Positions 2,065 to 17,610 of a stretch of DNA of 17,610 nucleotides are shown here, piece after piece. Positions within the stretch are counted from its first letter, which is position 1, and each line of letters opens with the position of its first letter. A program made the translations under genes and the position numbers. Source of the stretch: Aquisalimonas sp. (GTDB lineage: Bacteria; Pseudomonadota; Gammaproteobacteria; Nitrococcales; Aquisalimonadaceae); contig SLMR01000063.1 of assembly GCA_007133445.1 (NCBI GenBank), positions 1 to 17,610 of the forward strand, in the 5' to 3' direction. The notes below the pieces were generated by a model that was not told the DNA's origin, ran no database searches, and saw only the letters and a program-made list of their open reading frames with translations.

Positions 2065-2107
2065 ACAAAGAAAAGGCCCCGGCTCTCGGGGGGGAAAGAC
2101 CGGGGCC
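2065..2107 (-). terminator. Rho-independent terminator for engB / candidate sRNA
   Basis: On the minus strand an 8-bp all-GC stem (ggccccgg with ccggggcc, 2107-2100 and 2082-2075) is followed at once by TTTTCTTTG (2074-2066). It would end either a separate small RNA or engB read-through. On the plus strand there is no U-tract, so it is a poor polA terminator. Confidence 0.75.
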
Positions 2108-2200
2108 AACGTGACGACCCAGGGGAAGGGTCGTCGAAAGCCCGCTCAACATACAGGGGGGAGAGCGGGCAGCGCCGGGCACTGGCGCACCAAATAAGAC
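2065..2200 (-). ncRNA. Candidate small RNA with C-rich hairpin loops (polA-engB gap)
   Basis: Four perfect-stem hairpins fill the gap. In minus-strand order they are: 2188-2172 (5-bp stem), 2170-2140 (8-bp stem, loop containing UCCCCCCU), 2135-2113 (8-bp stem, loop UUCCCCU) and 2107-2075 (8-bp GC stem, loop with seven C) followed by UUUUCUUUG. The U-tract gives the orientation. A weak promoter lies upstream at 2235-2206 and would start an RNA near 2200, about 135 nt long. Known context, from memory: the polA-engB gap carries spf in E. coli and ErsA in Pseudomonas, and Xanthomonas sX13, beside polA, has stem-loops with C-rich loops. Inference: a trans-acting RNA whose C-rich loops pair with G-rich ribosome binding sites. 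It could instead be the structured 3' UTR of engB, or an RNA processed from it. E. coli spf runs in the polA direction, opposite to this. Confidence 0.55.
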
Positions 2201-2205
2201 CGCTC

Positions 2206-2235
2206 TGTACAGCAAAAGTTCCGCGGTGGGATCAA
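2206..2235 (-). promoter_or_regulatory. Possible weak promoter of the candidate sRNA
   Basis: On the minus strand, TTGATC (2235-2230) is followed after 18 bases by TGTACA (2211-2206), preceded by TGC in the extended -10 position. The -10 match to TATAAT is poor. An alternative is AACTTT - 17 bases - TTATTT (2220-2192). It lies just past the engB stop codon, where a stand-alone sRNA promoter would be expected. Confidence 0.3.
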
Positions 2236-16611: not shown

Positions 16612-16657
16612 CGGCGAACCGGTGACGCCGGGCGGGGCGCCTGTCCCGCGACGACCT

Positions 16658-16746
16658 GTAGGGTGCATCTTGATGCACCATCGACGGCGCCTGGCAAACC
16701 ACCGTGGCTGGCATGTCGGGAGAAGGTGCATCAAGATGCACCCTAC
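16658..16746. repeat. Palindromic repeat pair B (tails outward)
   Basis: Two more copies of the 18-bp palindrome, at 16662-16679 and 16725-16742, form a perfect 22-bp inverted repeat (arms 16658-16679 and 16725-16746) around a 45-base spacer. The GTAGG/CCTAC tails point outward, opposite to pair A. The right arm overlaps the end of the ligase gene and contains its TAG stop (16745-16743, minus). From gaagg to cctac, 25 bases are identical between the left arm of pair A and the right arm of pair B. The pair lies between the convergent ends of the CocE-type and ligase genes, where it could also form a bidirectional hairpin. Confidence 0.85.
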
Positions 16747-17610
16747 ACGCGGTAGCGCCCCCGGGCGGCTTCGATGATCATGCGGAGCAGGTCGGCGTAG
16801 CTGTATCCCGCCCAGCCGGCCATGATCGCCATCTTGCCGTCGTGGCTCCAGGTGGGGTTGAAGTTGGCATCCAGCAGGCGCGGGACGCCGTCGGCGCCGG
16901 CGCGGAAGTCGATGCGGGCGTAGTCGTGGAACCCCAGCCGCTCGAACAGCCAGATGGCCTCGCTGATCATGGCCGCCTCTGTGGCTGTGTCCAGCTCCGC
17001 CTGCTTGAATCTCAGGGCCTGCCAGTAGGGTGACTCCGGGTCCACCTTGGAGCCGTACGAGAGGATCGGCGGCAGGTCCGGATCCAGAGCGCTGTAGTCG
17101 ATCTCAAGGATGGGGAGCACGGTGATGCCCGTGGCCGGATTCCCCACCAGCCCCAGCGTGTACTCGGGGCCGGTGAGAAAGTCCTGGATCAGCGCCCGGG
17201 CGCCCGCCTCCGGCATTTCCGTGGCCAGCCACCGAAGGTAGGTGTCCGCTTCCGCGGCGTCGTGGACGACCGCATCCGGCGTCACGCCCAGGCTGCCGCA
17301 GCCGCCATTGGGCTTGATCATCGCCGGGTAGAGATCGGGCACCGTGAGCGGGTCCCCGCGCAGGTCCACCACGGTCTCGCCGGGAACGGGAATACCCTGG
17401 CCGGCGGCCAGCAGGCGGACCAGGGCCTTGTCGCTGCAGATTCCCATGCACGCCGGGTCGGATCCGGTATAGGGGATGTCCAGCAGCTCCAGCAGGGCCG
17501 GGATGTTGCGCTCGTTGGTGAGCAGGTTGCGATAGCCGGTGTCGCAGAAGTTGAGGGCCAGGTCCGGCGGATCCGACTGCAGCCGCTGGATCATCTCGCC
17601 ATGGTTGCTG
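16743..17610 (-). CDS. D-Ala-D-Ala ligase-like ATP-grasp enzyme, 5'-truncated by window edge
   Basis: ATP-grasp ligase of the Ddl-like group. At least 289 residues are visible. The frame remains open to the right edge (SNHGE precedes the first internal Met at 17594), so the start lies outside. Features: IPYTGSDPACMGICSDK, typical of the Ddl first-domain boundary; the ATP-binding loop AMIKPNGGCGSLGV (about 17325-17285), glycine-rich as in classical Ddl; GPEYTLGLVGN; and the metal/product site ARIDFR...DANFNPTW (about 16920-16850), with Asn where Ddl has NTxPG. NFNP in place of NTLP argues against true D-Ala-D-Ala synthesis and for another amino acid or peptide ligase. It converges on the CocE-type gene, and its TAG stop lies inside a repeat arm. 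Confidence 0.88.
   Translation of the reverse strand, partial: SNHGEMIQRLQSDPPDLALNFCDTGYRNLLTNERNIPALLELLDIPYTGSDPACMGICSDKALVRLLAAGQGIPVPGETVVDLRGDPLTVPDLYPAMIKPNGGCGSLGVTPDAVVHDAAEADTYLRWLATEMPEAGARALIQDFLTGPEYTLGLVGNPATGITVLPILEIDYSALDPDLPPILSYGSKVDPESPYWQALRFKQAELDTATEAAMISEAIWLFERLGFHDYARIDFRAGADGVPRLLDANFNPTWSHDGKMAIMAGWAGYSYADLLRMIIEAARGRYRV

Follow-up and report, generated by a model that had tools for sequence, protein, structure and literature searches.

A candidate small RNA gene with C-rich hairpin loops and an RpoE-type promoter motif between polA and engB of Aquisalimonas

The window, the whole 17,610-nt stretch of Aquisalimonas sp. contig SLMR01000063.1 analyzed here, starts within polA, as the frame of this gene is open to the first bases. 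The polA ORF ends at 2048 on the plus strand and the engB ORF at 2251 on the minus strand, leaving a gap of 202 bp, the size given in the initial annotation of this DNA. In an EngB tree, the window was placed among the Aquisalimonas-group loci, and its EngB was 84%, 78%, and 78% identical to those of its nearest named relatives, three Aquisalimonas loci. Elsewhere in the window, an inverted repeat at 16647-16757, 3′ of a gene for an S15-type peptidase, has 36-nt arms that are 86% complementary and 39 nt apart. The initial annotation placed a structured small RNA, opposed to polA, at 2065-2200. These coordinates cover the hairpins of the RNA, but the -35 element falls outside and the RpoE-type promoter was missed. 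The features of the gap are as follows:

2049-2250: polA-engB intergenic gap, into which both genes run, based on ORF ends and Pfam names
2195-2222, minus strand: RpoE/AlgU-type promoter motif, with -35 GGAACTT at 2222-2216, a 16-nt spacer, and -10 TCTTA at 2199-2195
2067-2191, minus strand: candidate small RNA, ~125 nt as modelled (R1, 130.4 bits; R3, 99.5 bits; the window copy is among the training sequences of both models)
2172-2188, minus strand: hairpin 1, GCGCC-AGUGCCC-GGCGC, invariant in the five copies of alignment A1
2140-2170, minus strand: hairpin 2, with the C-rich loop UCCCCCCUGUAUGUU at 2162-2148, based on fold and covariation
2113-2135, minus strand: hairpin 3, with the C-rich loop UUCCCCU at 2127-2121, based on fold and covariation
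2067-2107, minus strand: hairpin 4, with the loop CCCCCC at 2093-2088 and the tail UUUUCUUU at 2074-2067, a predicted intrinsic terminator

Folding of the minus strand yielded four hairpins, three of them with C-rich loops, in agreement with the initial annotation. The stems had been described as perfect and the last as followed by a U-tract; the fourth contains a bulged U and a G-U pair, and the U-rich tail after it is interrupted by a C. The minimum free energy of 2066-2216 on the minus strand was -70.5 kcal/mol versus -49.8 (sd 4.05) for dinucleotide shuffles (z = -5.1), none of 200 being as stable. The plus strand was about equally stable (z = -5.1), as expected of inverted repeats, and the energy thus gives no information on the strand. 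The search for terminator-like sites returned one, on the minus strand, which is no excess over chance (0.5, sd 0.8).

The string GGAACTT-N16-TCTTA has the form read by RpoE/AlgU, and transcription is predicted to start near 2194-2189. The -35 element lies 30 nt from the engB stop codon, and the RNA is co-oriented with engB. A sigma-70 consensus scan found no promoter. In the whole window, the looser string GAACT-N15..17-GTC occurred three times versus 0.83 expected. The equal folding of the two strands would also suit a functional plus strand, that is, a G-rich-loop element in the 3′ UTR of polA, such as a sponge for a CsrA-type protein: the plus-strand loops contain GGA-like runs, and GGA is the motif of CsrA. 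Nevertheless, it is the minus strand that carries the U-tract and the promoter motif, and where the RNA is inverted relative to polA, the C-rich, promoter-bearing strand stays the modelled one. We regard a plus-strand element as highly improbable, and the minus strand is considered below.

R1, a covariance model built from the five Aquisalimonas-type copies, found matches in 45 of the 54 order genomes, including three that had supplied training sequences. In each of the 45, polA or engB was present on the fetched stretch of one or more sites. The 65 matches included one duplicate (the upper copy of L119, which is the place of L101), which was removed before counting. The RNA was conserved in the three named Aquisalimonas genomes, where it occupies the same gap (L001-L003), and in one paralogue, A. 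lutea having a further copy elsewhere. This second full copy (L084:1501-1613 and L117:1492-1604, minus strand) is distant from polA; its neighbor is a permease-like gene, and it is preceded by GGAACCT-N17-TCTCA. Weaker, diverged matches were found on the same contig (L125, L133, and L136). The A. lutea gap is longer, at 427 bp, and several GTAGGAGCGGCTTCAGCCGCGA-like repeats lie between engB and the RNA gene at L003:3650-3830. By eye, some Aquisalimonas copies contain a short frame with a GTG or ATG start within the RNA; this reading was dropped because many other copies in the order have no start codon there.

Covariation of the stems in relatives had been named beforehand as a test that could refute the small RNA, and it was present in alignments of both 42 members from the order and 108 members from across the class. 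Among the 42, 30 of 35 pairs had changed on both sides. Specifically, both-side changes occurred at 9/9 pairs of hairpin 2, 8/8 of hairpin 3, and 12/13 of hairpin 4 (helices 4 and 5), while hairpin 1, with 4/5 pairs invariant, was the best-conserved element in the order. Paired cells made up 95.1% versus 73.2% in shuffled alignments, and the covariation score was 0.574, compared with 0.169 after shuffling and no more than 0.134 after sliding of the partners. For the 108 members, the score was 0.742, compared with 0.196 and no more than 0.133, respectively. Fitting of these alignments to a model biases the values toward the structure; even so, the difference from the controls is large. By this comparative evidence, the window RNA is an RNA gene.

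The promoter motif was counted in the order if it ended 4-18 nt upstream of the model start. Using this definition, GAACT-N15..17-GTC was found at 36 of the 49 sites beside polA or engB versus 0.075 expected from shuffles, most of the positive sites having it 6-8 nt before the model start; 13 of the 49 were without the motif as counted. Among the copies inspected by eye, a TGAACTT -35 overlaps the polA stop codon in L108, L122, L123, and L132, so that the gene end and the promoter have bases in common; the scripted counts covered all sequences. Among the 15 sites away from polA and engB, the motif was found at one; these are diverged matches, and the homology of some may be doubtful. The string was picked only after the sequences had been inspected; the stricter string used first, GAACT-N16..18-TC[TA]NA, was found at 18/49 sites (0.010 expected). 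The looser motif preceded rpoE in all 22 leaders examined in the order (0.10 expected), while the first string, in the form used on these leaders, occurred in none of the 22. An RpoE gene was found in 54/54 genomes of the order, in 52 of them above the curated cut-off. Judged from these relatives, the stems, the loops, and the promoter are conserved beyond chance, and the stems also covary.

To survey the class, we used R2, a model from order members only, without sX13, and R3, a model from 108 training rows that include the window and leave out ErsA. Alignment A4 held 41 of 61 sources at E-values up to 1e-7, and alignment A5 held 100 hand-picked sources, ErsA loci excluded. R2 matched 117 of 369 class genomes at E-values, themselves rough, of up to 0.001. 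In 68 loci taken from these 117 genomes, the fetched stretch carried polA or engB in 59 (26/28 and 33/40 in two sets). The window itself combines a full-length R3 match with polA and engB as neighbors, four hairpins, and the minus-strand promoter motif. The motif was also found, within 25 nt of the model start, at 13/28 sites (0.015 expected) and 27/46 sites (0.055 expected) in other orders. In L330:1948-2702 (minus strand), four family copies stand in tandem between polA and engB of one genome, each preceded, by eye, by a promoter-like GGAAC...GGTCTGA stretch; they are candidate sibling stress RNAs. Further neighboring pairs or sets of copies occurred among the R2 matches in the class.

The orientation of the RNA relative to polA varied. 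The initial annotation was right that the window RNA (minus strand) is opposed to polA (plus strand), which in the order was the case at 21 sites, the other 28 being co-oriented. Outside the order, it is the exception: 25 class loci were co-oriented versus one opposed (two unscored) in one set and 31 versus two (seven unscored) in the other, that is, 56 and three of the 59 loci scored. In this scoring, loci with engB but without polA in view were taken to have polA running against engB. On an EngB tree of 69 rows, in which 21 of 66 inner branches were weak, the orientation label required at least four changes. The promoter and the RNA seem to have been inverted as one unit, which speaks against a mere product of the engB 3′ UTR. 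An RNA without its own promoter, either a 3′-end product of the engB mRNA or a terminator array, would be consistent with the terminator, with an RNA that in the window is close to and co-oriented with engB, and with the 13 sites at which the motif as counted is missing. Nonetheless, the RNA runs along polA at 28/49 order sites and 56/59 scored class loci with its structure kept and often with the promoter; in most positives the motif is 6-8 nt before the model start; and the free-standing A. lutea copy, far from engB, has GGAACCT-N-GTCTCA. An engB product is accordingly improbable in our estimate, and we retain an RNA gene with its own promoter.

The initial annotation considered the RNA an unannotated member or analogue of a group containing ErsA and sX13. 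At curated cut-offs, Rfam had no match in the window, nor in 20 given member loci of the order, the G044 site not being among these. Covariance-model matches between sX13 (RF02232) and the window's relatives nevertheless ran in both directions at the polA locus, which bears out the group proposed in the initial annotation. The sX13 model matched 20 of 54 order genomes at E-values up to 0.01, 17 of them at the R1 site. Its gathering score of 50 bits was passed once in the 54 genomes (G044, 50.2 bits); the window reached 25 bits, and in the named Aquisalimonas genomes G001-G003 the model had no match within E 0.01 at the polA site. In the other direction, R2 matched all 20 given sX13 loci (27.2 to 49.1 bits), and the scores formed a gradient running from the order via other orders to sX13. 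Homology to sX13, as judged by covariance models, shows in the order relatives rather than in the window copy alone. Like sX13 of Xanthomonadaceae, the window RNA stands beside polA, has C-rich stem-loops and a terminator, and is of comparable length (~125 nt versus 115 nt), and the matches are full-length both ways. Three stable stems with C-rich apical loops are found in both, the window RNA adding a 5′ hairpin whose loop is not C-rich. The two differ in that sX13 was co-oriented with polA in 29/29 loci and nearly lacked the RpoE-type motif (2/29 loci; 0.105 expected), whereas the window RNA is opposed and has the motif. Shared ancestry with sX13 is well supported.

The anti-hemB model (RF02837, from Burkholderia) comprises only 81 positions and therefore does not match hairpin 1 of the window RNA. 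It matched 156 of 339 class genomes, 18 of them over the cut-off. Of 20 class loci with polA and/or engB as neighbors, six passed the cut-off. One match sits between engB and hemB (L297). The window scored 20.1 bits, against a gathering score of 49.5 bits that was reached by relatives in other orders. The inclusion of anti-hemB in one wider family is fairly supported.

For ErsA (RF01719, Pseudomon-1), the gathering score of 50 bits was exceeded in none of the 54 order genomes, and the window scored 21.5 bits. R3, however, matched 23/23 ErsA-model loci, the best scores ranging from 21.8 to 39.3 bits, and its matches overlapped the expected place of ErsA in 22 of them, L222 being the exception. 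The ErsA part of the initial claim thus holds in a weaker form, through mostly well-placed R3 matches and with no Rfam match of the window over a cut-off. ErsA of Pseudomonas shares with the window RNA the polA-engB gap and a sigma-22 (AlgU)/RpoE-type promoter, which in the window is a sequence motif only; the motif was found in 16/23 ErsA-model loci (0.08 expected). In contrast to the window RNA, ErsA was co-oriented with polA in all 19 loci with polA in view. A published study describes a U-rich unstructured domain II in ErsA (PMC8575079), which is absent from the window RNA. According to published work, ErsA is strictly sigma-22 dependent and represses oprD among others (PMC5819304, PMC7565897, PMC8575079). 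Kinship with ErsA is likely, if weaker than for sX13, and its inclusion in one wider family is moderately supported.

Spot 42 of E. coli (RF00021), also named in the initial annotation, resembles the window RNA in its position in the polA-yihA(engB) gap and differs in being co-oriented with polA. Spot 42 is thus supported by its position only. The Spot 42 model had no match in the window at E-values up to 10 over 1950-2350, and at spf R2 had no match and R3 scored 18.6 bits (E = 0.025). The inclusion of Spot 42 in the family is hardly supported.

In Rfam, sX13, ErsA, and anti-hemB are assigned to no clan, and RNAs with C-rich loops could have arisen independently beside polA, in which case the likeness of the window RNA to these three would not be ancestral. 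C-rich loops of low complexity raise covariance scores, as in the weak window matches of the 6C (RF01066; 29.9 bits, gathering score 47 bits), CcsR1, and Scr3202 models. Below cut-off, the sX13 and anti-hemB models also matched one and three of 14 control genomes, respectively, so that low scores alone are not specific, and the promoter of sX13 differs. Against convergence stand the reciprocal full-length matches at a single locus, the position of 59 of the 68 class loci examined next to polA or engB, and the graded scores from the order to sX13. We consider convergence unlikely. As for common descent in full, we see about an even chance that sX13, anti-hemB, ErsA, and the window RNA descend from one ancestral gammaproteobacterial small RNA that stood beside engB and polA in the RpoE envelope-stress regulon. 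Its gene would have been inverted in place several times and duplicated into tandem siblings in some lineages, and the RpoE-type promoter would have been lost in Xanthomonadaceae; Spot 42 could be the most derived form.

The structure, covariation, promoter motif, conserved locus, and relation to sX13 were obtained by computation. The minus strand probably carries the gene for a small RNA of ~125 nt that acts in trans and has its own RpoE-type promoter; this RNA would be related to sX13 and to the RNA found next to polA or engB across much of Gammaproteobacteria. Its transcription, RpoE dependence, targets, and mode of repression are predictions, and, with the published behavior of sX13 and ErsA taken together, an RpoE-induced repressor of mRNAs with G-rich initiation regions is the best interpretation. 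Envelope stress would switch the RNA on through RpoE (AlgU). By pairing of its C-rich hairpin loops with target mRNAs whose translation-initiation regions are G-rich, it would prevent ribosome binding, and the last hairpin would additionally end transcription. In published work on Xanthomonas, sX13 represses mRNAs with GGGG motifs near their start codons through its C-rich loops, and Hfq is not needed (PMC3771888). An Hfq gene was found in 52 of the 54 order genomes. The two without a match, G027 and G028, also had no R1 match; both are small and may be incomplete. The hfq mRNA was tried as a conserved target; its leaders are G-rich, and the test by eye was not discriminating.

Full-text searches, in a collection without most subscription papers, showed no report of the window RNA or of a joint family, which is no proof of novelty. 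Nor was there anything on the window RNA in the passages seen of papers on ncS35 (PMC5760752), on a sigma factor of Acinetobacter (PMC12153292), and on Alcanivorax small RNAs (PMC9788540). The gap seems to contain a genuine but unannotated gene for a regulatory RNA, with a stress-type promoter; related genes at this position in many other bacteria point to a common origin of several small RNAs that bear separate names. The sX13 paper reported that RNA in Xanthomonadaceae only and posed RNAs at the polA locus of other bacteria as a question (PMC3771888); for a large part of the class, the answer is yes. Should these families prove to be a single one, findings made in Pseudomonas, Xanthomonas, and Burkholderia could be read together. 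An RpoE-controlled RNA with loops directed against ribosome binding sites would then be a testable candidate for an ancient, repressing branch of the envelope-stress response in non-enteric bacteria.
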